The notes beneath the pieces are model-generated. The model was not told the DNA's origin. It searched no databases and saw only the letters and a program-made list of their open reading frames with translations. A stretch of DNA of 64,000 bases from Butyrivibrio sp. (lineage in GTDB: Bacteria > Bacillota > Clostridia > Lachnospirales > Lachnospiraceae). Every line of letters begins with the position of its first letter. Within the stretch, counting starts at the first letter, position 1. Position numbers and translations under genes: made by a program. The DNA lies in contig JAFUYO010000010.1 in assembly GCA_017470505.1 (NCBI GenBank), positions 1 to 64,000 on the forward strand, written 5' to 3'. Below are positions 37,865-51,334 of this stretch, piece after piece.

Positions 37865-40270
37865 ATGTACCAGGTAGTAAAGAGGGACGGCGCGGTTGCA
37901 GACTTTAACATTTCCAAGATCTCATCCGCAATAACAAAGGCATTTGTAGCACTTGAGAAGGATTATCACTCAAGTGTTATTGATCTTATTTCTCTCAGGG
38001 TAGCATCTGATTTTGAAACCAAGATTCACGACGGCAAGGTCACAGTCGAAGAGATTCAGGACAGTGTTGAGAAGGTATTGTCCGAGTCCGGATACTCCGA
38101 TGTTGCCAAGGCTTATATTCTCTACCGCAAACAGCGTGAAAAGGTCAGGAATGTCAACTCTGCCCTTCTTAATTATAAGGATATTGTCGACGACTATCTC
38201 AAGATAAACGACTGGCGCGTCAAAGAAAATTCAACTGTTACTTATTCTGTAGGCGGACTTATCCTCTCCAACTCCGGGGCAATAACAGCCAATTACTGGC
38301 TCTCCGAGGTCTATGACGAAGAAGTTGCCCAGGCGCACAGAAGTGCCGCCATACATATCCACGACCTGGCCATGCTCACAGGCTACTGCGCAGGCTGGAG
38401 TCTCAAGCAGCTGATTCAGGAGGGTCTCGGCGGAGTTCCGGGCAAGATCACATCTTCGCCCGCATGCCACCTCTCCACCCTCTGTAATCAGATGGTCAAC
38501 TTCCTGGGTATCATGCAGAACGAGTGGGCAGGCGCACAGGCATTCTCTTCCTTTGATACCTATCTCGCTCCTTTTGTCAAGGTAGATAATCTCTCACAGG
38601 ATGAGGTCAAGCAGTGCATACAGTCCTTTGTCTACGGTGTGAATACTCCTTCGCGCTGGGGGACACAGGCTCCTTTTTCCAACATAACACTTGATTGGAC
38701 CGTTCCCGCCGACCTTAAGAATTTAAACTGCATTGTCGGCGGCAAAGAGCTCGACTTCACCTACGGCGACTGCCAGAAGGAAATGGATATGGTGAACAAG
38801 GCCTTCATCGAGATCATGATCGAGGGCGATGCAAACGGACGCGGATTCCAGTATCCCATCCCCACATATTCCATAACACGCGATTTCGACTGGAGCGAAA
38901 CAGAGAACAACAAGCTCCTTTTTGAGATGACTGCCAAGTACGGCACACCTTATTTTTCCAATTACATAAACTCCGATATGGAACCCAGCGATGTGCGCTC
39001 AATGTGCTGCAGGCTTCGCCTGGATCTTCGTGAACTCCGTAAGAAATCAGGCGGTTTCTTTGGCTCGGGTGAGTCGACAGGATCTATCGGCGTTGTCACT
39101 ATCAATATGCCAAGGATTGCATACCTCTCCAAAGATGAGAAGGACTTCTACTCAAAACTTGACCACCTCATGGACGTAGCTGCAAGAAGCCTTAACACCA
39201 AGAGACAGGTCATCACCAAGCTTTTGGATCAGGGTCTCTACCCTTACACCAGGAGGTACCTCGGAACCTTTGCAAACCACTTCTCCACCATCGGCCTCAT
39301 CGGCATGAACGAGGTTGGGCTGAACGCAAAGTGGCTTGGGAAGGATATGACCAATCCCGAGACCGTAGAGTTCTCGAAAGCGGTTCTGAACCACATGAGG
39401 GAGCGCCTCTCCGACTATCAGGAGAAGTACGGCGATCTCTACAACCTCGAGGCTACACCTGCAGAGTCCACAACCTACCGCTTTGCCAAACATGACAAGG
39501 AACTCTATCCCGACATCATCACAGCAAACATGAACGGAACTCCTTATTACACCAACTCATCCCATCTTCCTGTAGGATACACTGAGGACATTTTCTCAGC
39601 GCTTGACATCCAGGATGAGCTTCAGACGCTTTACACCTCCGGAACCGTATTCCACGCGTTCCTCGGCGAGAAGCTCCCCGACTGGAAGGCTGCCGCAACA
39701 CTTGTCCGCAAGATTGCAGAGAACTACAAGCTTCCCTACTACACCATGTCTCCTACTTACTCGGTATGCAAGGAGCACGGATACCTCACAGGTGAGCAGA
39801 CTCTTTGTCCTCACTGCGGTCAGAAAACCGAGGTGTACAGCCGTATAACCGGCTACTACCGCCCTGTTGCCAACTGGAACGACGGTAAGGCCCAGGAGTA
39901 CAGGGACAGACTTGTATACGACATCGGCCACTCACGCCTCACCCACGAAGGTCCGAAAAAAGTCAGCTTCGTAGAGGCAGCTGTCAAAAAGGCAAACAGA
40001 GAGTCAGGCGATGGCACGGTATATGTAGATGACGGGACAATTATGCTGTTCAAGACAACCACCTGCCCCAACTGCAAGATTGCAGGATCACTTCTCGACA
40101 AGGCAGGAGTTCAGTACAAGCTGATGGACGCCAACGAAAATCCCGACCTCGTGGAGAGATTCGGTATCATGCAGGCTCCTACCCTTGTAATATCCTCCGG
40201 CAACTCCTTTGAGAAGTTCGGTGGAGTATCAGACATCAAGAGCTGGATACAGAGTTCCCAGGTCTCATAA
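37865..40270 (+). CDS. nrdD: Anaerobic ribonucleoside-triphosphate reductase with fused C-terminal redoxin
   Basis: An 801-residue class III ribonucleotide reductase. Residues 1-95 are an ATP-cone (MYQVVKRDGAVADFNISKI). The barrel holds active-site cysteine regions HLSTLCNQMVNFLG and RSMCCRLRLD. Near residue 640-660 are the zinc cysteines (VCKEHGY, LCPHCG) and the glycyl-radical site SRITGYYRP. Unusually, the last 75 residues (from TIMLFKTTTCPNCKIAG) are a thioredoxin/glutaredoxin-like domain with CPNC. Some NrdD groups use a redoxin instead of formate as reductant, so the fused domain is probably the electron donor. It is controlled by the NrdR boxes upstream. GGGGG precedes the start. Confidence 0.95.
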   Translation: MYQVVKRDGAVADFNISKISSAITKAFVALEKDYHSSVIDLISLRVASDFETKIHDGKVTVEEIQDSVEKVLSESGYSDVAKAYILYRKQREKVRNVNSALLNYKDIVDDYLKINDWRVKENSTVTYSVGGLILSNSGAITANYWLSEVYDEEVAQAHRSAAIHIHDLAMLTGYCAGWSLKQLIQEGLGGVPGKITSSPACHLSTLCNQMVNFLGIMQNEWAGAQAFSSFDTYLAPFVKVDNLSQDEVKQCIQSFVYGVNTPSRWGTQAPFSNITLDWTVPADLKNLNCIVGGKELDFTYGDCQKEMDMVNKAFIEIMIEGDANGRGFQYPIPTYSITRDFDWSETENNKLLFEMTAKYGTPYFSNYINSDMEPSDVRSMCCRLRLDLRELRKKSGGFFGSGESTGSIGVVTINMPRIAYLSKDEKDFYSKLDHLMDVAARSLNTKRQVITKLLDQGLYPYTRRYLGTFANHFSTIGLIGMNEVGLNAKWLGKDMTNPETVEFSKAVLNHMRERLSDYQEKYGDLYNLEATPAESTTYRFAKHDKELYPDIITANMNGTPYYTNSSHLPVGYTEDIFSALDIQDELQTLYTSGTVFHAFLGEKLPDWKAAATLVRKIAENYKLPYYTMSPTYSVCKEHGYLTGEQTLCPHCGQKTEVYSRITGYYRPVANWNDGKAQEYRDRLVYDIGHSRLTHEGPKKVSFVEAAVKKANRESGDGTVYVDDGTIMLFKTTTCPNCKIAGSLLDKAGVQYKLMDANENPDLVERFGIMQAPTLVISSGNSFEKFGGVSDIKSWIQSSQVS

Positions 40271-40331
40271 AGAAACATTCTCAAATATCGTAGGAACAAT
40301 CATTTTTCCGGTCAGGTGGTGCAATAGACAT

Positions 40332-41990
40332 ATGATAAAAGAATATACTTTTGAAAATGACAGAACAAAGATTCCACAGGTTCTCGATTTCATAAAAAAC
40401 ACCCTGTACGAAAAAAAGATGACAAGGAAGAACTCTGTTGCCCCGCTCCTTACCGCAGAGGAAATCCTTGAAAACATATGCAAGGCTGCCGACAAAAACT
40501 CCCTCATCCGCGTGAGCGTGGTTGGGCGCCTTAGCAATGTCACGATCAAATATAGCGCTGTCGGCGGCGAGTTCACACTCGAAGACGTCCAGCAGGTACT
40601 TCTTTTCGACAAAACGTCCTCTCTTGATTCTGATAAAAAAGATGCGATGAACACCCTCATGGAGAAGCTGTTCGGATCGAATCTCAGCATCAAGTGCGAC
40701 CACGGAAAGATCCATGTACGGCAGGATGTAAGAAAATCAGCCTACTCAGGACTTATCGCAACACTTGCATCCCTCATCCTCGGCATCATAACAGGGCTCA
40801 TCCTTCAGAATATGGTCTCTTTTGAAGCCGCCTCATTTATCAGCGAAAATATCTTCTCACCCATCTACTCAGTTCTCATGAATGCGCTGAAGATGATCGT
40901 GGCTCCGCTGGTATTCTTCTCAATCGCGAGCAGCATTGCTGAGTTTTCTGACATAAGGGCTCTTGGAAGAATTGCTGGCAAGGTTGTCACCATGTATATA
41001 ATCACTTCCATTCTTGCGATTGGAGTAGGTCTTTTGACCTATCAGATTTTTCCCATAGGCAATCCCGCTCTTGCAGAGGCTGTGGACGCCAATGCTGCGG
41101 CAGCTACCATTGCAAAAGGTGAATCAGCTGCCATATCCATAATTGATACACTTGTAGAGATAGTACCGACAGATATCGTTACGCCTTTTCAGAAATCGGA
41201 TATGCTGCAGATCATATTTATGGCAGTATGCCTTGGACTTGCTGCTGCCTCATTATCAAAGACAGCTCCTGTTGTAAAAGACCTTGCCGGCGGGCTGAAC
41301 AAAGCTTTTTCCAAGATAACCGGAGTGATTGTATCGTTTATGCCTTTAATGGTCTTCTGCTCAATGGCAAAAATGATGCTCAATATGAACCTGACATCAT
41401 TCATGGATGTGATAACATGGCTGCCGGTTGTGTACATTGGCGACGTGTTCATGATCATCGTTTATATGATCCTGCTCCTTGTATTTGCGCAGCTAAACCC
41501 AATCAAATTCCTTGGCAAGTACTACCCCGCCATGATCTCTGCATTTATCCTGTCATCGAGTAACGCTTCTCTTCCGACTTCTATAAAGCAGTGTAAAAAG
41601 CTTGGCATTTCAGAGAAAATCTACTCCTTCTCACTGCCACTTGGAGCGGCCATCAACATGGACGGAAACTGTATTACACTTATAATTTCAGCTCTGTTCT
41701 TTGCTAAAATCTACCAGCTTCCAATGACAGGCGCTATGCTGCTGCAGCTCTTTATCGCGATCATAGTCCTCTCCGTCGGAGCACCCGGCGTTCCCAGCGG
41801 AAACCTCGTGTGCCTGACTCTCCTTATACCCCAGATCGGAGTTCCGGCTGAGGCAATAAGCCTTCTCATCGGTCTCTACCCGATAATCTCGATGATGCAG
41901 ACCTTGACAAACGTGACAGGAGACGCCGTGGTGACGTGTATTGCCGCAAAGAGTGAAAAAATGCTTGATAAGGCCGAATTCAACAAATAA
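40332..41990 (+). CDS. Dicarboxylate/amino acid:cation symporter with N-terminal ATPase-like domain
   Basis: A 552-residue protein. Residues 135-545 are a DAACS (SLC1-type) transporter: SSSNASLPTSIKQCKK is the serine-rich hairpin motif and GAAINMDGNC the cation site, so glutamate, aspartate or a dicarboxylate is imported with Na+ or H+. Residues 1-130 are an extra cytoplasmic domain; LLTAEEILENICKAA then VSVVGRLSNVTIKYSA resembles the N box and following strands of a HATPase fold, though the G1 aspartate seems lost. The ATG at 40332 is used, with AGGTGG upstream; a longer open frame would run into nrdD. It starts 61 bases after nrdD and may share its transcript. Confidence 0.85.
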   Translation: MIKEYTFENDRTKIPQVLDFIKNTLYEKKMTRKNSVAPLLTAEEILENICKAADKNSLIRVSVVGRLSNVTIKYSAVGGEFTLEDVQQVLLFDKTSSLDSDKKDAMNTLMEKLFGSNLSIKCDHGKIHVRQDVRKSAYSGLIATLASLILGIITGLILQNMVSFEAASFISENIFSPIYSVLMNALKMIVAPLVFFSIASSIAEFSDIRALGRIAGKVVTMYIITSILAIGVGLLTYQIFPIGNPALAEAVDANAAAATIAKGESAAISIIDTLVEIVPTDIVTPFQKSDMLQIIFMAVCLGLAAASLSKTAPVVKDLAGGLNKAFSKITGVIVSFMPLMVFCSMAKMMLNMNLTSFMDVITWLPVVYIGDVFMIIVYMILLLVFAQLNPIKFLGKYYPAMISAFILSSSNASLPTSIKQCKKLGISEKIYSFSLPLGAAINMDGNCITLIISALFFAKIYQLPMTGAMLLQLFIAIIVLSVGAPGVPSGNLVCLTLLIPQIGVPAEAISLLIGLYPIISMMQTLTNVTGDAVVTCIAAKSEKMLDKAEFNK

Positions 41991-41991
41991 A

Positions 41992-42056
41992 AAAGACAGG
42001 AGGACGGTTCTTTTGACTGATTTAAAAAACAGTCAAAAGAACCGCCCCCTGTCTTT
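41992..42056. terminator. Very long bidirectional terminator
   Basis: AAAGACAGG and CGGTTCTTTTGACTG on the left pair with CAGTCAAAAGAACCG and CTGTCTTT on the right, interrupted by a four-base internal loop. It lies directly after the symporter stop and before the converging gene at 42066. Confidence 0.85.
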
Positions 42057-42065
42057 CCGGCCTGC

Positions 42066-42461
42066 TTATCTCATCATAGCCTTGATGGGATTTATTGCTG
42101 ATGCAATCTTTTTGAGCATATCGAGATTCTGCTTCATGTAGAACTCAAGGCCTGCAACTTCTTTCTCGGAAAAGCCCTCGCTTTTGTTTATCCTGCAGGT
42201 TGGGATCTCGCCTTCCGCAACTCTCTTTCCTTCGGAAAAAGTGACATAGGCAACCTTCCGTCCACCCTTTTTACAGACTCCGGAGACCTGCATACGAAGC
42301 TCTGCTGACGCATCGGCACTATCACCATTGTCTGAATGCTCACTCCCGGAATTCTTTCCCTGTTTATCAAGGCTGCCCTGGCTGCCGGTACTGGCATCGC
42401 CGCTTAGTGTGGATTTCCCGTCATCAGTTCTTTTGCCAAAAATAATATCAAAATTCTGCAT
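42066..42461 (-). CDS. Conserved-looking small protein of unknown function
   Basis: A 131-residue protein. Residues 1-50 are low-complexity (serine, glycine, aspartate), and residues 55-131 form an ordered part (VSGVCKKGGRKVAYVTFSEG, then an acidic stretch and a helical tail LEFYMKQNLDMLKKI). The pattern resembles a widespread Lachnospiraceae hypothetical, but I know no function. The ATG reading MQNFDIIFG has AGGTAG upstream; the longer frame overlaps the rubredoxin gene. It lies 16 bases after rubredoxin, so the two are cotranscribed and a redox role is possible. Confidence 0.65.
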   Translation of the reverse strand: MQNFDIIFGKRTDDGKSTLSGDASTGSQGSLDKQGKNSGSEHSDNGDSADASAELRMQVSGVCKKGGRKVAYVTFSEGKRVAEGEIPTCRINKSEGFSEKEVAGLEFYMKQNLDMLKKIASAINPIKAMMR

Positions 42462-42477
42462 CACTCTGCTACCTGAT

Positions 42478-42636
42478 TTACTCCTGAGCTGTGAAGTCTT
42501 CCTTGCCAACGCTGCAAAGAGGACACTTGAAATCCTCGGGGAGCTCCTCCCACCTGGTGCCTGCCTCTATCCCGTTATCGGGATCGCCTGCTGCTTCGTC
42601 ATAGACATAGCCACATACATTACATACATACTTCAT
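42478..42636 (-). CDS. Rubredoxin
   Basis: A 52-residue one-iron redox protein. The four iron-binding cysteines are in CNVCGY (residues 5-8 region) and CPLCSVGK near residue 38-41, with YVYDEAAGDPDNGI between, a textbook rubredoxin. It carries electrons in anaerobic peroxide and oxygen defence. The start is the ATG reading MKYVCNVCG, with AGGAGGCAGATCTT upstream. Confidence 0.97.
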   Translation of the reverse strand: MKYVCNVCGYVYDEAAGDPDNGIEAGTRWEELPEDFKCPLCSVGKEDFTAQE

Positions 42637-42748
42637 AAGATCTGCCTCCTTTATTATTGGGTACGCCCGCAAAACCATTTGCCTACGGGCTTCACATATC
42701 TCAATTATGAGGCATAGCCGCCCTTAACACCAGTAAAAATAATATAAA

Positions 42749-43672
42749 TTACATTTTCGTGTTCTCAGGCTTTTTCCCAATACGCTCATAGAGCGGAAAT
42801 GCCATTGGATATACCCCCGTCACAAGGAACATGGTTATTGCATACCTCCCAGTCCTTACAAGAAGCGCCAAGAAGTTTGCACCTGCGAGAAAATCCCTGT
42901 CAAAAGGAAGCTTTAACAGCTCATTCACTGCAAGATATATAATGAAAGCACCCGCTACACGCAAAAACATTGCAGGTACACTCCGCGTTTCCTGATAATT
43001 TACATATTTTCGCTCAAAATATATTGCCGCTATTACACCCGTAAGACAACCAACCGCAGTAAAAAAATCACTAGTACGCACATAGAAAAGCCCCGGAACG
43101 GCGGACACAATAAGGATTGCATGGTATTGCCACTCCTTCTGAACATACTTATCAAGCAGAGCAAATATGCCGATAACCACAAATCCAAGTATCCATCCGA
43201 CCAGCACATCCGTCGGATAGTGCATTCCGGCCACTACTCTTGAAACGCCTACCAATACGGTCAGTATTGCAGCAAGCACAAAGAGCCATTTCTTTTTGGC
43301 CTCATTTGCCAGCACAAAGTAAAGCGCCGGGATTGACGCACTGTGCATACTTGGAAAAGAATAGCCCTGGGCAACCACACCTTTTTCAGCAGCATCTTTT
43401 CCGGCAAGTGTCAGCGCCTCCACTCTGTCGGGATAATCCATATAGGGTCTTGGCCTTAGCACTACCGCTTTGATCATCGGCAGCCACATATTCACGCAGA
43501 CAGTAACCAGTGCCAGCTTCTGTCCCGTCTCCTTTTTCCAGCAGAACATCACAATCAGCACCACCATCATCAGCCCTGATTCCGCTCCCAGAAAAGCCAG
43601 CAATTTCACAATGCTGCCCAGACTGCTGAAATTTGCCTGAAGCCATTCGATCAAACTAACTTCCCATTCCAT
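42749..43672 (-). CDS. PAP2-family membrane phosphatase
   Basis: A 307-residue protein with about eight helices. All three acid-phosphatase motifs are visible: KAVVLRPRPY (about residues 68-77), YSFPSMHSASIP (about 104-115) and SRVVAGMHYPTDVLVG (about 144-159). Such enzymes dephosphorylate undecaprenyl pyrophosphate or phosphatidic acid at the outer face of the membrane. It could recycle lipid carrier for cell-wall synthesis, which is inference. AGAGGTGGAACTACT precedes the ATG. The palindromic array lies directly upstream, from about 100 bases before its start. Confidence 0.9.
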   Translation of the reverse strand: MEWEVSLIEWLQANFSSLGSIVKLLAFLGAESGLMMVVLIVMFCWKKETGQKLALVTVCVNMWLPMIKAVVLRPRPYMDYPDRVEALTLAGKDAAEKGVVAQGYSFPSMHSASIPALYFVLANEAKKKWLFVLAAILTVLVGVSRVVAGMHYPTDVLVGWILGFVVIGIFALLDKYVQKEWQYHAILIVSAVPGLFYVRTSDFFTAVGCLTGVIAAIYFERKYVNYQETRSVPAMFLRVAGAFIIYLAVNELLKLPFDRDFLAGANFLALLVRTGRYAITMFLVTGVYPMAFPLYERIGKKPENTKM

Positions 43673-43768
43673 AGTAGTTCCACCTCTCTTTCTCTCATGA
43701 TTAATTGTTCCTTACTCTTGCTATTTGATCTTTTGCACGTTTAAGCAGTAATGATACAACAGCTCGAT

Positions 43769-43966
43769 TTACTGTTGAAATATGTATTTCTCTCTTTTCA
43801 ACAGTAATTCTGCAGTGCTACTTACTGTTGAAATATGCATTTCTCACTTTTCAACAGTAATTCCACACAGCTACGTACTGTTGAAATATGTATTTGTCAC
43901 TTTTCAACAGTAATTCCACACAGCTACGTACTGTTAGAATATGCATTTCTCACTTTTCAACAGTAA
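43769..43966. repeat. Palindromic repeat array 1 (four units, 53-bp period)
   Basis: Four hairpin units begin at about 43769, 43822, 43875 and 43929. Each has TTACTGTTGAAA on the left and TTTTCAACAGTAA on the right around a 14-15-base AT-rich loop (TATGNATTTCTCAC-like). Units are joined by 14-base spacers, three of which are nearly identical (TTCCACACAGCTACG). The units match those of the array at 45221-45807. Confidence 0.9.
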
Positions 43967-44103
43967 ACAATTGCATGCATATCTGACACATGCTAATGCC
44001 TTAGCAATAACTATCATACTACCTACCAGACAACTCACTCAACAACTATAATGTAGGCCTTATCAGAAACTGCTTTGTTGCTGTCCGATTCCAGACCAGT
44101 AAC

Positions 44104-44301
44104 ATGCAATTTGGGCATCATAATCGCATCGAGGTGGCCCAAATTGCATACTGAATCATTTTCTTACTCAGCCAGCAGCGTAGTGCCGGCTGCTGACTGA
44201 TTAGTAATGCTGTTTTCAACATTAAAGAAATGTATCAGCCCCAAAGATATCTGAATATTTCGAATATTCATAACAATCTAATTATTCTATATAGTTCGAA
44301 C
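44104..44301. other. Cluster of further palindromes between array 1 and the nuclease-like gene
   Basis: A perfect 13-pair inverted repeat ATGCAATTTGGGC/GCCCAAATTGCAT (44104-44149, 20-base loop), a 12-pair hairpin around CAGCAGC (44168-44200), a palindrome TGAATATT-TCG-AATATTCA (44252-44270) and GTTCGAAC (44294-44301) lie in 200 bases. None is followed by a T run on the minus strand. The stretch 43967-44332 holds no gene. The hairpins could be processed RNA ends, protein-binding sites or relics of mobile DNA. Confidence 0.6.
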
Positions 44302-44332
44302 AATCTGAACATAAACCACAAAACTACGCTTG

Positions 44333-45136
44333 TTATAATAAGTACTCCCTGATATACTGTTCTGCCACCGACGTATTCAGTGCGTAAGAAGACGATTCAT
44401 ACGTAACAATAAGACGCCGCCCGGGAATGATGTTATTTTTGATGTATTGATCAATCTTTCTTATTGCTTTTTCCACATACTCAGGGTCTCCCATTCTTCC
44501 GTCATGCTCCCAATATATTTCTTCATATGTCTTTTTACTCAAAAATGTGAAGTCCGGATAAACAATACCATATCCCTTAAGGTGCAACGGGCACTCGTAC
44601 TTATATTCAATTCCGTAATCATAAAACATATCTGCCAGAATCTTTTCAGATTTAGATCTTACACGCTCTCCCTTCTTGGTGTAAATCTCAACTTGTCCTT
44701 CTTTAAATTCTTTACCATTATAAGGAGTTGCTTTCCACAGGGCTAGCCTTTGCTCCCAGGTCTCTTCTACAGGGTTAACAAGTCCCCTTCTTATCTGATG
44801 AAGTCCTAAATATATCTCTTCGATCTCGTCATCCTCATATTCTTTGATCAGCCTATCGAATTGCCCGCACCTTTTGTCTACAATCTTTTTAACTTTTTGA
44901 TCATAGTTTTTTTGAGCCAATTGCCTGACCATTGGAAGGTCATCTTTCCTGATATATCTAAGCTTACCACCGGATTTATCGCTATTTTCAACACAACGAA
45001 CATACTGAACTTTGTTATTAGACGTAGTAATCCTGAGTGTTCCCTGCGGAACATCTGTGAGCCGCTCATCAACAATTGTTTTAATTCTCTTTAATCTTTT
45101 CTCTTCTTCGAGTAGTAGTCCTTTTAATCCATACAT
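44333..45136 (-). CDS. PD-(D/E)XK-like nuclease flanked by palindromic arrays
   Basis: A 267-residue protein. Residues 1-130 are helical and basic (EEEKRLKRIKTIV, KIVDKRCGQFDRLI). Residues 160-267 match the fold seen in stand-alone or helicase-linked nucleases: VRSKSEKILADMFYDYGIEY, then VYPDFTFL and IYWEHDG, then YVEKAIRKIDQYIKNNIIPG. In PD-(D/E)XK terms the first Glu is in RSKSE, the Asp in PDF, and the E-x-H in YWEH replaces E-x-K. I infer DNA cleavage or binding; the partner and target are unknown. AGGAGG lies 13 bases before the ATG, a rather long gap. AT-rich codon use stands out from its neighbours, suggesting transfer. The flanking arrays may be its substrate. Confidence 0.65.
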   Translation of the reverse strand: MYGLKGLLLEEEKRLKRIKTIVDERLTDVPQGTLRITTSNNKVQYVRCVENSDKSGGKLRYIRKDDLPMVRQLAQKNYDQKVKKIVDKRCGQFDRLIKEYEDDEIEEIYLGLHQIRRGLVNPVEETWEQRLALWKATPYNGKEFKEGQVEIYTKKGERVRSKSEKILADMFYDYGIEYKYECPLHLKGYGIVYPDFTFLSKKTYEEIYWEHDGRMGDPEYVEKAIRKIDQYIKNNIIPGRRLIVTYESSSYALNTSVAEQYIREYLL

Positions 45137-45220
45137 AGTGTTTTTCTATCCTCCTCTATAAACGCATATTTTTTCCTGTTTATATCTGACCATACAGATG
45201 AGAATCTATATGGCTAACTT

Positions 45221-45807
45221 TTTTACTGTTTCAATCTTAATTTCTACTATCTTAATTTCTACTATTTTCAACAGTAACGCTATCAAAGAGCGTACTGTTA
45301 AATTCTACATATTTACAATTCCAACAGTAACGCCTACCTGAGACTTACTGTTGAAATCAATGAATTCTCAATTTCAACAGTAACGCCACCTTGAGACTTA
45401 CTTCTGGATTCTGATAATTCCAATTTTCAACAGTAGCAACACCCTGAGACTTACTGTTAAAATCTACGAATTCTCAATTTCAACAGTAGCGCCACCTTGA
45501 GACTTACTGTTGGATTCTGCAAATTCCAAATTCCAACAGTAGCGACCCCCTGGGACTTACTGTTGATATTTACGAATCCTCAATTTCAACAGTAACACTA
45601 CCACGAATCTTACTGTTGGATTCTAATAATTCCAAATTCCAACAGTAGCGACCCCCTGGGACTTACTGTTGATATTTACGAATCCTCAATTCCAACAGTA
45701 ACACCACCACGAATCTTACTGTTGAAATCTACGAATTCTCTATTTCACCAGTAACACCATCACGAATCTTTCTGTTGAAATCCACGAATTCTCAATTCCA
45801 ACAGTAA
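45221..45807. repeat. Palindromic repeat array 2 (eleven units, 53-bp period)
   Basis: Left half-sites (TTACTGTTGAAAT or variants with GGAT, GATAT) start at about 45221, 45293, 45346, 45399, 45451, 45504, 45558, 45610, 45663, 45717 and 45770; steps are 52-54 bases apart from the first. Each ends in CAACAGTAA or CAACAGTAG. Two unit types alternate in the middle, so 45504-45609 and 45610-45716 are copies of a 106-bp dimer. The array ends 38 bases from the comEC stop codon. Outside the repeats, 45137-45220 holds no gene. Confidence 0.92.
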
Positions 45808-45844
45808 CCTCGTCTCGAACATTGGCGCTGCTGCCTGTTATGTC

Positions 45845-48793
45845 CTACTTATCATCGAGATACTCCTCCACTTTTAGCGTATCGCCGCCATCTAGGACCT
45901 CCACTGTAATTGCTCCGCCCAAATCCGTGCGGTACACTCTTGCTCCGACGCTCTCAAGGCGCTCTAATACTTCCTCGTGGGGATGGCCGTAGGTATTGTT
46001 TCGTCCGCAGGAAACAAGAGCCACCCTGGGAGTTATCATCGCAAGAAACTCTTCGTCCGTCGTGTAGCGGGAGCCGTGATGCGCGACCTTGAGAAGCGAG
46101 AGATTTCCATATACATCAGGGTTTGCAGCGATTATATCCCGGATGTCCTCCTGCCCTTCTCCTTCCACATCCCCTGTGAAAAGAGCCGTGAACCTTCCGT
46201 ACTTCATAAACAAAACGGTGGAATACTCATTTGCACCATCTGTCTTCATGTTCAGCACAGGATTGAGGCAGGTAAATTCGGCCTTTCCAACATTAAACCT
46301 CTCCCCTCTATTGATGTAGGATATCGGAATTCCAAGGTCATTAGCTCTACCAGCAAGCTTTTGGTAGTTGTTTCCTCTGCTCGATGCGTCAACCTCAGGA
46401 AGTATCAGCTCGTCAACCCATATTCCGCCCTTCTCCATGTCATCGAGCACGTCCATAATTCCGCTTAAGTGGTCCTCATCCTCATGCGTCAGAATAATTG
46501 CTCTCAGTCTCCCAATCCCCTTATACTTTAAAAAAGGGATTATCTGGTACCTGCCAACATTCTTCTTACTCGTGCTGCCTCCGTCGATCATGATATTGCT
46601 TCTGCCGCTCGATATCACAATTCCGTCACCCTGGCCCACATCTATCATGTTGATCTCCATCTGCGGCTTTATGTGAAACGTAAGAATAAATACAGCTACG
46701 AGCAGTATCACTATCCGCAACAAGCGGAAATCTCTTCTTCCTCCGTAAAATACGGCACTAACCGGCATCTCATTTACTGAGTTAAAATAAGCAGGCTCTG
46801 TCCTGCCGTCCGAAGCAATCTCACTTCCTCTCTTGACATCAAGACATCCAATATCTTTGGCCTCAGGATGTTTGGAGCCTTCACTTCTCTGACTATCAGC
46901 CTCTTCATCTCTGTTTCCAGAGCCAACCGAGAATAAGACAAATGCTCCCATAAGCATCAGATACGCAAGGACCTGCCATTTCTCAGAATGCCCCAGGAAC
47001 CATGTCATATTGCGTGTAATTAATGCAGATGAGCATAGAGCCCTGTAAAGCCACAATATGAGATGCACAGGAAGACCGAGAAGATGGATAGCTTCTTCCG
47101 CCGCCATCCCTCTCTCGCTCAAAGCACTGCCAACCTGTATAGCAGAGGTACCAAATGAAGCTGCTGATGCTTTGCCCAAAACTCCTCTATCCTGAAGCAA
47201 CAGCGATGAAGTCGCTATTGCTGTAGCAGATGAAGGAAATATTCCTCCCCCCGCCACTGCAGATATAACACTTCCTGCGACCATGGTCCCGATCCCTGCG
47301 ATCATCAGAATCCCCATAAGTGGTATCACCACCAGATTTAAGAAGATGGAATGTACGGGGTATGTGTAGTAATAAAGACTGTAGACAGGAAGCGTCGAAA
47401 GGGCTATGCCAGCGCCTGAGGTTAGCCCCGACAGCAGCGCTCCGATAATCTTCTGTAGCATCGTTGTCTTATCGTCAACGAACCTCATCCTGAACGGATC
47501 ATCTGCTGCAGCTTCTGATGGCGGGATAAGTCCGCGGTCTGCCAGAAACCTTTCAAGCCCGGTGATATGAAGGTGCGGCGCGATAACCGACGCCCCGATC
47601 ACAGCCCCAAAGGAGAACAGGAACCCGCTGTTATAAAGGTACAGCGGCTGATCCAGCAAAAGAAGCATCTCCGAAAAAGCCAGCGCCGAAAGAAGGTCGT
47701 AGGTCCTCCCAAATAGGGGCGCCATAATCCTTAGGACAAACATGCAGATTGCCCTGAAAGAGGACGAGCTCATTCCGCACATAACTCCGTAGGAGTACAT
47801 GAAAAGAACGGATATCAAAACAGGCACAGATCTGTATATTAATGCCATTAGTATCTTCTTTGATCCCTGTTCCTGCTTCTTTCTGTATCTTCCTTTCCCC
47901 GCAGCAGCTGTTTCCAATTTACCACTCCTCAATCTGATCCGTGAAATAAAGTCTGCTGCCCTGTCCATAAGCCTTCGTAAAAGCTCATATATCCCCATAC
48001 CTATGATAGATATGTGAAGCCCCGAGACCGCCAGTATATGCATTATTCCCCCGGCCATGTACAGGTCCCTGGTCTCTGCGTCCATGAAGGCTTTGTCACC
48101 GAGGAGCATCGCCTTCATGACGCCGGAATCGTCCTCATTAAGGACAACGTCCAAAGCTCCTTCCAAAAACAGTCTGAGCCTGAAAAGGCTCTCTTTATAG
48201 GGGCTCTTGCTTCCGCCCCTTTTTGTGATGTTGCAATCACTCAACCTGTATGAAATTTTTAATGTCTGATAATAAAGACGACTGTCAAACTCCCCGGGAT
48301 TTGTCGGAGACAAAAAATTCCTGACCCTGCCGTGTATTTCCACATATTCGCCGGTTGACGGAAGGCCAACTGAGGATGACGCTGTGCTGCGATATCCCAT
48401 TACAGGAAAGTCGGCTGCAGATGACGCTGTGCTGCGGTATCCCATTGCAGGAAAGTCCGCTGCGGATGATGCTGTGCTGCGATATCCAGTTACAGAAATA
48501 GCTGCAACCGATGGCGCTATGCTGCTCTCTCCCACATCATCATCCTGCTCCTTAATATAGCACTGCACCATCTCCGAATCCGCTTTTGCATCTGTCGGCG
48601 CAATGTAGATAACTGGCACAAAGCCTCCATCATAGCTCTTTTTGAATTCTTTGTCCTCTACCGTTCCTACGATGGTAACCTCTTCACCGTCGGAATACTC
48701 ATATAAACTACTATCCAGGGGATTATTTATTTCAAGAAACACAAAGACAGCCGCCGTCAAAAGAATTGCCAAAAGGCATAACGGCCTCTTCAT
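45845..48793 (-). CDS. comEC: ComEC/Rec2 DNA uptake channel
   Basis: A 982-residue membrane protein. An N-terminal OB-like domain (about residues 35-190), the competence domain with about ten helices (about 230-640, including LGDKAFMD and MHILAVSGLHISIIG), and a C-terminal metallo-beta-lactamase domain (about 715-975; LTHEDEDHLSG holds the metal ligands, VAHHGSRY follows). It would carry one DNA strand across the membrane and degrade the other. A tandem peptide repeat lies inside the OB domain (48363-48497). The region about 650-700 is a poorly conserved linker. GGGAG precedes the ATG. It is the last gene of the comEA operon. Confidence 0.93.
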   Translation of the reverse strand: MKRPLCLLAILLTAAVFVFLEINNPLDSSLYEYSDGEEVTIVGTVEDKEFKKSYDGGFVPVIYIAPTDAKADSEMVQCYIKEQDDDVGESSIAPSVAAISVTGYRSTASSAADFPAMGYRSTASSAADFPVMGYRSTASSSVGLPSTGEYVEIHGRVRNFLSPTNPGEFDSRLYYQTLKISYRLSDCNITKRGGSKSPYKESLFRLRLFLEGALDVVLNEDDSGVMKAMLLGDKAFMDAETRDLYMAGGIMHILAVSGLHISIIGMGIYELLRRLMDRAADFISRIRLRSGKLETAAAGKGRYRKKQEQGSKKILMALIYRSVPVLISVLFMYSYGVMCGMSSSSFRAICMFVLRIMAPLFGRTYDLLSALAFSEMLLLLDQPLYLYNSGFLFSFGAVIGASVIAPHLHITGLERFLADRGLIPPSEAAADDPFRMRFVDDKTTMLQKIIGALLSGLTSGAGIALSTLPVYSLYYYTYPVHSIFLNLVVIPLMGILMIAGIGTMVAGSVISAVAGGGIFPSSATAIATSSLLLQDRGVLGKASAASFGTSAIQVGSALSERGMAAEEAIHLLGLPVHLILWLYRALCSSALITRNMTWFLGHSEKWQVLAYLMLMGAFVLFSVGSGNRDEEADSQRSEGSKHPEAKDIGCLDVKRGSEIASDGRTEPAYFNSVNEMPVSAVFYGGRRDFRLLRIVILLVAVFILTFHIKPQMEINMIDVGQGDGIVISSGRSNIMIDGGSTSKKNVGRYQIIPFLKYKGIGRLRAIILTHEDEDHLSGIMDVLDDMEKGGIWVDELILPEVDASSRGNNYQKLAGRANDLGIPISYINRGERFNVGKAEFTCLNPVLNMKTDGANEYSTVLFMKYGRFTALFTGDVEGEGQEDIRDIIAANPDVYGNLSLLKVAHHGSRYTTDEEFLAMITPRVALVSCGRNNTYGHPHEEVLERLESVGARVYRTDLGGAITVEVLDGGDTLKVEEYLDDK
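48363..48497 (-). repeat. 45-bp coding minisatellite in comEC
   Basis: Three 45-base units (period marked by GATATCC/GGTATCC at 48391, 48436 and 48481) encode the 15-residue peptide GYRSTASSAADFPAM with small changes. They lie within the N-terminal OB-like domain. The frame is kept, so copy-number change would add or remove 15 residues. Confidence 0.85.
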
Positions 48794-48872
48794 AGAAAAC
48801 TCCCAATCCGTGACTGATCAGAGCCGCGCAAATGCAAAAGCTGCAAATGCAGGGCTACTCTGAATCGTCACC

Positions 48873-49811
48873 TTATTCAATAATATCCAGATTCCTCTCG
48901 TAGGGAGAGGTTATTGTTGTATCCATAAATGAAAAACCTGATTCGCCGTTCACCGAAAATGCAACCTTGTTGATATCAGGAAGCTCAGCGACGGTATTTA
49001 CCAGGGAATATATCGCCACATCAGCAGTGACGCTGTAGGGGTCGCTCTGGAAAGCCGGATCAAGGTCAAGGTAGCAGACTCCGTCCCTGACGTTTACCGA
49101 ATTGATCTTGATATCCTTCGATACCGTGGGAAAACAGATGTCTGTGTTCGGTCCGCTTATGACCTGTTCTATCGCAAGCCTCTCCATCGAGATATTGCTG
49201 TTGTAGACAACAGAGCGGTAAACCGGCACCAGCTTGTCTCCTGCCTCGTTGGCAAAATAGAGCTTCAGCTCAACCTTCTCATAGGTATTTATCTCATTTC
49301 CCACATTGAAAATGAAGGTGTCCGCAGACATATTGCCGATGACATGCCCGTAGTGGTCAGTGAGGGGCTGCCCCTCCACCTGAAAGCTGACATAGTCAAT
49401 GAAATCCAGCTGTGTAAAAGTCCTGACAACCGCAGCCCTGTCCAGAATCTCAATGGTTCCCTGTATCTGTGAATAGGAGCTGTCGAAGTTGAAGGTCAGT
49501 ACCTTGTCGCTGAGAAAATAATCCAGCAGGTTGACCTCTCCCGTGAGCGGCGCCTCGTACTGACGTCTTTCAGGCATGGTGCCCAGCTGCTCAAGGAGCT
49601 CAGGTATCACCGCGTCAGGGTCATCTTTTTGGGCCCTGATCTCGTAGTCCACCGCCATGATACCGGTCTCTGAGTTGTTGACATAGTATATCTTAAAAGA
49701 GCCCGTCCCGGCCCCCGGCTTTCTCTCGCACCCTGAGAGATATATGAGCATCACAGCCGCTATGAGAAAAAATAATAATCTTTTTTTAAAAATCTGATTT
49801 ACTCGCTTCAT
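48873..49811 (-). CDS. GerMN-domain lipoprotein
   Basis: A 312-residue lipoprotein: signal peptide with lipobox LSGC (LLFFLIAAVMLIYLSGC), then two GerMN domains (about residues 35-160 and 165-300), as in GerM and LpqB. The second repeat includes VDLDPAFQSD-like YLDLDPAFQS. It sits on the outer face of the membrane. The ATG reading MKRVNQIF is used; a TTG six codons upstream overlaps the kinase gene. Its place directly after a WalK-like kinase suggests that it modulates the sensor, in the way LpqB does for MtrB; this is inference. Confidence 0.85.
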   Translation of the reverse strand: MKRVNQIFKKRLLFFLIAAVMLIYLSGCERKPGAGTGSFKIYYVNNSETGIMAVDYEIRAQKDDPDAVIPELLEQLGTMPERRQYEAPLTGEVNLLDYFLSDKVLTFNFDSSYSQIQGTIEILDRAAVVRTFTQLDFIDYVSFQVEGQPLTDHYGHVIGNMSADTFIFNVGNEINTYEKVELKLYFANEAGDKLVPVYRSVVYNSNISMERLAIEQVISGPNTDICFPTVSKDIKINSVNVRDGVCYLDLDPAFQSDPYSVTADVAIYSLVNTVAELPDINKVAFSVNGESGFSFMDTTITSPYERNLDIIE

Positions 49812-49825
49812 ATCATGTCCACATA

Positions 49826-51334
49826 TCAATTTCCCTTTATCGCCGCGCTCGTCGCTATGAGCGGTATCTTAACGGTAAAGGTTGTGCCCTCATCCACCTT
49901 GCTCTCAACATCGATTGAACCCCTGTGCATCAGCACAGCGCTCCTGACAATAGCAAGGCCCAGGCCTGTCCCGCCGATCTCTCTGGATCTGGATTTGTCG
50001 ACCCTGTAGAACCTCTCGTAGATGTGATCCAGCGACTCCTCTGGAATACCAAACCCCGAATCCATGACTTTCACATAAAAATACTGGTGATCCGCATCGA
50101 GCTCAACTCTGACCCAGCCCTCTTCCTTGTTGTACTTGATGGCATTCTCCACGAGGTTCATGATGACAAGAGATATCTTGACCTCGTCGATCTCCGCAGT
50201 GATAGCTCTTTTGCTCTCAAGTGTCAGCTCAATATTGTGTTTCCTCGCAATTGGCCTCATGCGCTTTAGGACGATCTCGGTCATGTTCACAACATCAACA
50301 GATGTGATGTTAAGGCCAGATGCTTTTTTATCCATCTTGACGAGTGATAACAGGTCGTTGATGATCTTGTCCTCCCTGTCGATCTCTTCACCAATATCCG
50401 TCATGAAATCCCTGTAGACTTCATTCGGCACTTCCTCCATGGCAAGGAGCGAGTCAGCCAGAACCTTCATCGAGGTTATCGGCGTCTTGAGCTCATGTGA
50501 GACATTTGAGACAAACTCCTGTCTCGAGTCATCCAAAACCTTCATCCTTCTAAGGAGCGCGTTGAAGGCATTTATGATCTGCTCCGTCTCAAGGTAGTTG
50601 GGGCCAACAATCGGCTCATCGGTGTAGCCTGCCTTAACGTCGTTTATTGCAGTCGTGATGCGGTCGAACGGTTTAAGAAGTGTAAATGCTACCAGTGCGG
50701 CAAATATCAGGATAAAAATAATGATGATAGCCTCAAGCGTCTGGGCGCGGCGGCTCAGGATTTCAAGCGTCGTGGCTATCGTATCGGTTGAGACAGACGT
50801 AAGCAGCACTCCTCTCACCACTTCGCCGCTCCTGCCAGATACCGAAACATCCTCCTCCTCGATAACTTCACTCTCGATGATGGGTGTCACGATCTCGATG
50901 TATCCGTTGGCAGAGTCGTACTTGGATACCGTTCCTTTTGAACCCGTCTTCAAGCAGTTCACCACCTCCTCGGAGATGATGGTTTTTCCCTGGCTGATGT
51001 TGTAGGTGTCCTTCACAACCTTAAGATCGTCGTTGATAACGATAACGCGGCCGTCATAGAGATTGGCCAGCATATCGAGCTCAGCGTTTATCACTTCCGA
51101 TGAGGTGTCCAGAAGATAGTTTGATACGATGAGGTGATTGGCAAGAATGCGCAGCTGTGTCTGCACCTCAGTTGACCTTACATTGATCGCACGGTCCTCA
51201 TAGCTCTCCAGAATCAGGGCATGCATGCCCAGACAGGATATGAGTCCTGTCAGAAAGACGATCACAAAGAACCTTGCTTTTAGACTTTTAAAGATATTCT
51301 TTATGTTAAAAAATCTGTTAATATCCATAATCAT
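49826..51334 (-). CDS. Sensor histidine kinase (WalK/PhoR-like)
   Basis: A 502-residue sensor kinase: two membrane helices (about residues 22-42 and 190-210) around an extracellular region, HAMP (about 212-263), HisKA with phospho-acceptor in VSNVSHELKTPITS (about 278-291) and a HATPase domain with NLVENAIKYNKE, DSGFGIPEE and GGTGLGLAIV. The ATG overlaps the response-regulator stop as ATGA, so translation is coupled. The signal is unknown; the layout is that of the cell-wall-sensing group. Confidence 0.92.
   Translation of the reverse strand: MIMDINRFFNIKNIFKSLKARFFVIVFLTGLISCLGMHALILESYEDRAINVRSTEVQTQLRILANHLIVSNYLLDTSSEVINAELDMLANLYDGRVIVINDDLKVVKDTYNISQGKTIISEEVVNCLKTGSKGTVSKYDSANGYIEIVTPIIESEVIEEEDVSVSGRSGEVVRGVLLTSVSTDTIATTLEILSRRAQTLEAIIIIFILIFAALVAFTLLKPFDRITTAINDVKAGYTDEPIVGPNYLETEQIINAFNALLRRMKVLDDSRQEFVSNVSHELKTPITSMKVLADSLLAMEEVPNEVYRDFMTDIGEEIDREDKIINDLLSLVKMDKKASGLNITSVDVVNMTEIVLKRMRPIARKHNIELTLESKRAITAEIDEVKISLVIMNLVENAIKYNKEEGWVRVELDADHQYFYVKVMDSGFGIPEESLDHIYERFYRVDKSRSREIGGTGLGLAIVRSAVLMHRGSIDVESKVDEGTTFTVKIPLIATSAAIKGN

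Follow-up and report, generated by a model that had tools for sequence, protein, structure and literature searches.

Tandem repeats placed 5' of a nuclease-like gene are found in type III toxin-antitoxin systems of the ToxIN type. Palindromic repeats with a cognate protein are known from REPIN/RAYT elements. In the passages of PMC3116915 that describe these elements, the RAYT gene is flanked by its own palindromic repeats and gene-less copies lie elsewhere. Each RAYT protein has its own repeat type, the genes are single-copy and largely vertically inherited, and REP tandem arrays, i.e., GI/GIII arrays, have spacings of 112 and 72 bp. The parS site of plasmid F, i.e., sopC, is given in the corresponding part of PMC6238139 as twelve tandem repeats of 43 bp, with inverted motifs of 16 bp.

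In the window, i.e., the whole 64,000-nt stretch of a Butyrivibrio sp. contig that was analysed, a gene for a PD-(D/E)XK-like protein is enclosed by two arrays of palindromic repeats (Table 1). The nuclease-like family is one of gut and rumen Clostridia, often with several copies per genome, and an array often lies just ahead of the gene. A description of such a nuclease-array module was not found in the open-access literature, preprints being outside its scope, and no open-access paper was found for PDC-S68 or PDC-S69, the related PADLOC profiles.

Table 1. Coordinates of the nuclease-like gene and its arrays in the window
Feature	Position	Strand	Description
PD-(D/E)XK-like protein gene	44333..45136	-	267 aa, intact ORF; PADLOC PDC-S68 C-terminal domain E 2.1e-24
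N-terminal half, residues 1-143	44708..45136	-	divergence tracks arm sequence; probable DNA-reading part
C-terminal nuclease-like domain, residues 144-267	44336..44707	-	invariant residues and PADLOC matches
3' array	43769..43966	.	four 39-nt units, starts 43769, 43822, 43875, 43928; 53-bp step
5' array	45292..45807	.	ten 39-nt inverted-repeat units, exact 53-bp step
5' array unit starts	45292, 45345, 45398, 45451, 45504, 45557, 45610, 45663, 45716, 45769		
Degenerate outermost unit of 5' array	45223..45277	.	right arm 45266-45277 in register; nearest left arm at 45223, shifted 16 bp too far left

The palindrome arrays and the enclosed gene

The unit of both arrays is a 39-nt inverted repeat, i.e., TTACTGTTG-N21-CAACAGTAA, matched with at most 4 mismatches over 18 arm positions. 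Four full copies lie 3' of the gene and ten lie 5' of it. The original prediction had counted fifteen units, i.e., four and eleven, at steps of 52-54 bp. The four and ten full units and a fixed period stand, but the eleventh right-hand unit is degenerate, and the step is exactly 53 bp throughout both arrays without the 52-54-bp spread. The 5' array does adjoin comEC as had been stated, and the gap between its end (45807) and the comEC ORF start (45845) measures 37 bp. The 12-mer arm, with at most 2 mismatches, was matched 32 times in the window against 5.87 expected (100 shuffles, maximum 12). The 5' array alternates partly between two unit types, seen as a 106-bp superperiod with a Tandem Repeats Finder (TRF) match of 83%, compared with 74% at 53 bp. 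The promoter scan gave 7 sites against 7.4 expected, and no site on the gene's strand was found in the 5' array or in the gap ahead of the gene.

The single PD-(D/E)XK-like gene that had been predicted between the arrays is supported by the intact ORF, the PADLOC nuclease-domain matches and invariant putative catalytic residues. In an alignment of 37 members, R160, S161, K162, E164, P194, D195, E210, H211 and G213 were among 18 invariant columns, with E164, P194, D195 and E210 invariant in 37/37. The PD-(D/E)XK catalytic motif appears as a variant, i.e., E210-H-x-G, in which the usual K position is otherwise occupied. The C-terminal part was matched by PDC-S68 in all 37 members (E 2.1e-24 for the window protein) and by PDC-S69, a profile of 289 positions, in 35 (E 2.5e-5), and similarity to PADLOC HEAT_CxxC_PDDEXK was found in 29. 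The Holliday junction resolvase family of PHROG was weakly matched by three of the 37 (best E 0.001). Pfam and NCBIfam gave no convincing match for any member. The best match in a PDB sequence search, a carbon-nitrogen hydrolase (E 0.0067), was judged to be due to chance.

Three more relatives with 34-44% identity are encoded in the same genome, one of them a C-terminal fragment. The paralogue L047 (contig C16, 9305-10084) has its own 5' array, with the arm CAGATAAA and a period of 63-64 bp. Since this arm and period differ from those of the window, two different modules are present in one genome.

Linkage, helical period and half-sites among relatives

The proposal of a repeat-plus-nuclease module was borne out across species. 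With a detector of free period (25-140 bp), arrays of at least three inverted-repeat units were found in 112 of 215 upstream regions, versus one of 202 windows taken from other parts of these loci and none of 58 comEC-locus ends. The far windows are mostly coding, unlike the upstream regions, and the downstream control is better matched. In the latter comparison (period 50-57 bp, at least two units), arrays were detected in 73/119 upstream, 7/119 downstream and 0/119 block-shuffled sequences. The 215 regions and 112 arrays include some genes fetched twice, and 91 arrays were left after merging of similar upstream sequences. No array of at least three units was detected in 103 of the 215 regions.

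In 62 loci, TRF found 50 arrays of period at least 25 within 1.2 kb of the gene; 27 of them have a period of 53 or 54, and all 27 are on the 5' side. At least 2 kb from the gene, the period was 52-53 in two of ten TRF arrays. Among 80 named loci, which overlap partly with the 62, a period of 52-54 was found in 41/59 arrays on the 5' side within 1 kb, in 3/8 on the 3' side and in 1/14 beyond 1.5 kb. The arrays of homologues carry other arm sequences than the window array, lie mostly 5' of the gene, and in some cases end about 20 bp before its start.

Some loci are arranged differently. Period-53 arrays flank the gene on both sides in three Mediterraneibacter loci (L142, L144, and L145), like in the window. 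For one distant homologue, a tandem array with a period of 86 bp lies directly on the 3' side of the gene rather than the 5' side (L105, 4680-5151). At L085 (8036-8304), a second array, with the arm GCACCGCCT and a step of 52-53 bp, is separated from one nuclease gene by about 2.4 kb, and it resembles the arms of the array of another paralogue in the same genome (L243, CGCACCGC).

The array periods are quantised. The mean periods of the 91 merged arrays fell at 42 (1 array), 51-55 (69), 61-64 (9), 73-75 (6), 83-85 (3), 94-95 (2) and 108 bp (1), and the ranges between the classes of about 42, 53, 63, 74, 84 and 95 bp were empty. The 108-bp array (L075), probably a double 54-bp step, was kept among the 91, and nine of the 112 arrays, whose solved inverted-pair spacing is close to the period, were retained in the period count. 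The mean resultant length (Rayleigh R) of the 91 arrays was 0.88 at 10.5 bp, and the best pitch was 10.56. For the 22 arrays outside 50-56 bp, R was 0.86 at 10.5 and 0.87 at the best pitch, which 0 of 5000 uniform simulations reached (largest 0.72). With a free period of 35-130 bp, a search at 96 genes, many of which are distant, gave 42 arrays, and 192 shuffles gave none. In the longer-period arrays, one gap is mostly 24-35 bp and the other is 32-38, 42-50, 48-56 or 59-64 bp, i.e., the extra length falls in the linker, by whole turns; in 53-bp arrays, the labelling of the two gaps as pair or linker is arbitrary.

The original prediction that all units face the same side of the helix is thereby extended from the window to the family, with period classes at whole turns. 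The quantised period may reflect proteins stacked on one duplex face. The physical rule, i.e., a unit length of 4 to 9 full helical turns, makes such a protein-DNA assembly directly testable.

Base pairing of the arms was analysed in the 95 arrays left after removal of identical ones (950 columns, 4068 cells). The paired fraction was 0.900, compared with 0.902 +/- 0.0014 after partners were reshuffled within arrays, and 5 of 24 cells changed on both sides pair, versus 11.7 +/- 2.8 expected. Because the units were detected by their arms, with at most one mismatch per 8-mer arm, arm identity is inflated and strongly changed pairs are under-sampled in this test. In the 41 units of this genome, positions 10 and 30 combined as A-T 12, G-C 9, G-T 9, A-C 8 and other 3, as expected of independent half-sites. 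On the gene strand, G.U was in slight excess over A.C at most (200 vs 166; 31 loci vs 24). The absence of base-pair covariation together with whole-turn periods points to half-site recognition on duplex DNA, not to hairpins or RNA, and the palindrome is best read as two copies of a half-site and not as a selected hairpin.

Two readings based on folded strands were weighed on these data. The palindromes might form cruciforms or single-strand hairpins and be cut by the nuclease in the manner of a junction resolvase. Such a role would suit the perfect or near-perfect arms and the weak PHROG matches, but covariation is absent from the arms of 95 arrays and positions 10 and 30 behave like independent half-sites, so that we consider it very improbable, and the hairpin as a selected feature is argued against by the same absence. 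The array might instead be transcribed to repeat RNAs that neutralise the nuclease, as in type III toxin-antitoxin systems. The tandem arrays lie directly 5' of the nuclease-like gene, at times ending close to its start, and the small G.U excess is in favour; however, the periods are quantised in turns of the DNA helix, stem covariation is absent, and there was no Rfam match at gathering score in 43000-46500 (three matches below this score were judged to be chance). A structured array RNA is thus not indicated by the sequences, an RNA antitoxin array was rejected as the main reading, and we regard the type III-like role as very improbable.

Half-site recognition agrees with how arms and proteins vary together. 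The 102 arrays compared (5151 pairs) are the 112 without the nine that have a pair spacing close to the period and one with a short or missing protein. The share of pairs with half-site similarity above 0.6 rose from about 2% at 20-40% protein identity to 12% at 50-60%, 50% at 70-80% and 88% at 80-95%; arms are mostly dissimilar already at 50-60% identity. In a Mantel test, 0 of 999 permutations were as high as the observed value, and the correlation is weak (Spearman 0.18). The partial correlation was 0.157 for the N-terminal half given the C-terminal half, and -0.005 for the C-terminal half given the N-terminal half. Because it sits in the N-terminal half, this half is likely the DNA reader. 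The many divergent protein-array pairs would then form a natural collection of DNA-recognition modules whose half-sites can be read.

Gene-less arrays, genomic homes and distribution

The arm pattern was searched in the whole genome with at most 3 mismatches, giving 47 forward matches and 44 reverse ones; the reversed control gave 11 and 8, respectively. Four further arrays with the same arms were found, with 8 units on contig C25, 7 on C28, 5 on C38 and 7 on C39 (9, 8, 7 and 8 under a looser rule), at 53-bp steps except for one 105 gap in C38. These arrays sit between likely genes, and a relative of the nuclease is absent from all four stretches. The expected co-occurrence of repeats and gene therefore holds in part: homologues often carry arrays, but the arms also occur without the gene in these four arrays, and nearly half of the upstream regions, as given above, have no detected array.

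In 41 units from six arrays of this genome, arm identity was 0.95 both within and between arrays, a value inflated by arm-based selection. Loops were 0.74 identical within and 0.47 between arrays, and spacers 0.72 and 0.33. Since arms are alike everywhere and loops and spacers mainly within arrays, the pattern fits arrays that grow locally while something in trans keeps the arms constant. Spacers that are alike within arrays are not those of CRISPR-Cas, and no cas genes were noticed on reading the ORFs at 40000-50000; the original exclusion of CRISPR was supported.

Two arm patterns were searched in 18 genomes, with matches in 14 and none for the control. In five of the 14 (G005, G008, G019, G035, and G036), matches were confined to the gene-linked array. 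Of 18 stretches away from the gene, 16 had arrays of at least four half-sites, and none had a nuclease relative. One of the 16 (L326), close to the end of its contig, is probably a gene-linked array that was cut off, and another (L315) starts at a contig start. Seven other genomes had 15 gene-less arrays (at least four half-sites) whose arms are those of the resident gene. By our reading of the flanking genes, the 19 gene-less arrays comprise 4 convergent, 2 divergent, 11 codirectional and 2 undetermined cases. This lack of a clear promoter-side preference is unlike a set of operators or a regulon. One gene-less array (L044, 6404-6706) lies beside a gene read as encoding a metallo-beta-lactamase-fold protein that resembles the ComEC C-terminus; that the window array also adjoins comEC is probably a coincidence.

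Neighbour genes were clustered in 62 loci and named by our reading of their sequences. An RNA-methyltransferase-like gene is upstream in 21 loci and a UvrD/PcrA-like helicase gene in 13; L13-like and S9-like ribosomal protein genes recur in 8 and 7, and a Rho-like gene in 6, i.e., the largest clusters read as housekeeping genes. The arms differ among species at one and the same home. Recurrent homes with species-specific arms suggest that the module is inherited vertically, gene and array diverging together. Mobility of the module is possible; neither an empty site at base level nor a target duplication was obtained.

The gene-less arrays may be viewed as products of a PD-(D/E)XK counterpart of REPIN/RAYT, in which the nuclease would spread or expand arrays in trans from the gene-linked array as source population. 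The 4 arrays of this genome and the 15 in seven others, the likeness of loops and spacers mainly within arrays and of arms also between them, and the fixed places of the modules, e.g., beside the RNA-methyltransferase-like gene, are in line with it, and in the passages concerned of PMC3116915, the phylogeny of RAYTs, too, is reported to follow that of the species for the most part. However, gene-less arrays are few per genome and lacking in five of the 14 genomes, no empty site or target duplication was seen, a nuclease alone has no joining activity, and a transposition substrate has no obvious need of helical quantisation. We therefore hold this reading to be unlikely.

The clusters also bear on a centromere-like or chromosome-organising site as in parS of plasmid F, where the array would nucleate a large nucleoprotein complex and the nuclease domain would be accessory. 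Tandem inverted-pair units adjoining the gene of the presumed binder, and their helical phasing, would be expected of such a site. It is nevertheless quite improbable, because no partner gene is common to all loci (the largest cluster covers 21/62), the 15 largest clusters, as read from their sequences, include no ParA or ParB, up to nine gene copies occur per genome, and the putative catalytic residues are conserved.

A link to comEC or DNA uptake, raised in the original prediction, did not hold. The comEC C-terminus was found in 75 of the 79 genomes analysed from the genus, this one among them. The nuclease follows comEC in 0 of 29 relatives' loci (stretch up to 1.5 kb; two are short, i.e., L283 with 40 bp and L286 with 364 bp), and other modules adjoin other housekeeping-like genes. 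The first ORF after comEC was read as delta-subunit (HolA)-like in 11 of the 29 and NrdD-like in 3. The NrdD-like gene is directly after comEC in L294, L302, and L304 and 5.6 kb away in the window (40271-45844), so the stretch between is variable.

Of the 145 genomes searched, 78 encode relatives (this genome included), with one to nine per genome. A class-wide draw (E 1e-10) gave relatives in 38/391 genomes, many via the C-terminal domain only, and a phylum-wide draw (E 1e-20) in 9/398, the three matches outside the class being C-terminal only. The named genomes gave 557 stretches encoding a relative, of which 80 were kept for analysis. As for carriage by phages or plasmids, there was one relative among 79 candidate stretches of viral contigs, three plasmid records matched in the C-terminal part only, and three unannotated faecal phage records matched, the best with 36% identity over 78% of the protein. 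The only pointer to a possible defence role is the relationship of the nuclease domain to PADLOC candidates.

Proposed mechanism and known systems

The computations gave linkage of gene and array, a bias to the 5' side, a quantised period, conservation of half-sites rather than hairpins, covariation of arm and protein, gene-less arrays and conserved putative catalytic residues; from these we infer binding, cooperativity, autoregulation or sequestration, and cleavage. It is somewhat probable, in our judgement, that the nuclease-like protein binds its own phased array cooperatively and so restrains or autoregulates itself. The module would be self-contained and made of two parts, i.e., a PD-(D/E)XK-like protein that stands alone and the array of paired half-sites that belongs to it. 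The N-terminal half would read the half-site, and every inverted pair would be occupied by a dimer. Since full helical turns separate one pair from the next, the dimers would align on one duplex face and may come together cooperatively immediately 5' of the gene that encodes them. Such an assembly would autoregulate the gene and sequester the nuclease on the array, and gene-less arrays with the same arms would be secondary docking sites or by-products of array spread. Among the main weaknesses are the 103 upstream regions without a detected array and the lack of a promoter-like match on the gene's strand.

A stronger form, conceivable though doubtful, is a DNA 'leash', in which a phased array of cognate half-sites holds the nuclease in check as a one-faced ordered complex, i.e., a new class of element. 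If so, divergent and possibly mutually orthogonal nuclease-array pairs would coexist in one genome, and the leash would be the DNA counterpart of RNA-array toxin-antitoxin systems.

The module can be compared with known systems as follows. Like type III systems of the ToxIN type, it has an array ahead of a nuclease-like gene, but the constraint appears to act on the sequence of the half-sites and their phase along duplex DNA, and not on RNA structure. With the phage-defence candidates PDC-S68 and PDC-S69 of PADLOC it has a related C-terminal nuclease-like domain in common, although only approximately the last 120 residues match, and the PDC-S68 profiles are about 1200 positions long. As in REPIN/RAYT, to the extent described in PMC3116915, cognate palindromic repeats are placed beside the gene and dispersed, each protein has its own type of repeat, and inheritance looks largely vertical. 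Unlike REPIN/RAYT, the protein is no recognisable HUH/Y1 transposase (the Y1 family is absent among its Pfam matches, and an H-hydrophobic-H motif occurs in 1/37 members), the arrays are helically phased tandem units, and gene-less arrays are few. Like sopC with ParB/SopB, as given in the part of PMC6238139 on this site, it has tandem inverted-motif units, and the 43 bp of sopC are close to four turns. Unlike sopC and ParABS, it is chromosomal, encodes a nuclease-like protein in several divergent copies per genome, and has no conserved ParA/ParB-like partner in the 15 largest clusters of 62 loci; the ParB family is absent among the Pfam matches of its protein. The module is a member of neither ParB/parS nor RAYT/REPIN, as the proteins that define these systems were not found. 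In the best-supported reading, it would resemble ParB on parS in its assembly and RAYT/REPIN in its gene-plus-repeats ecology.
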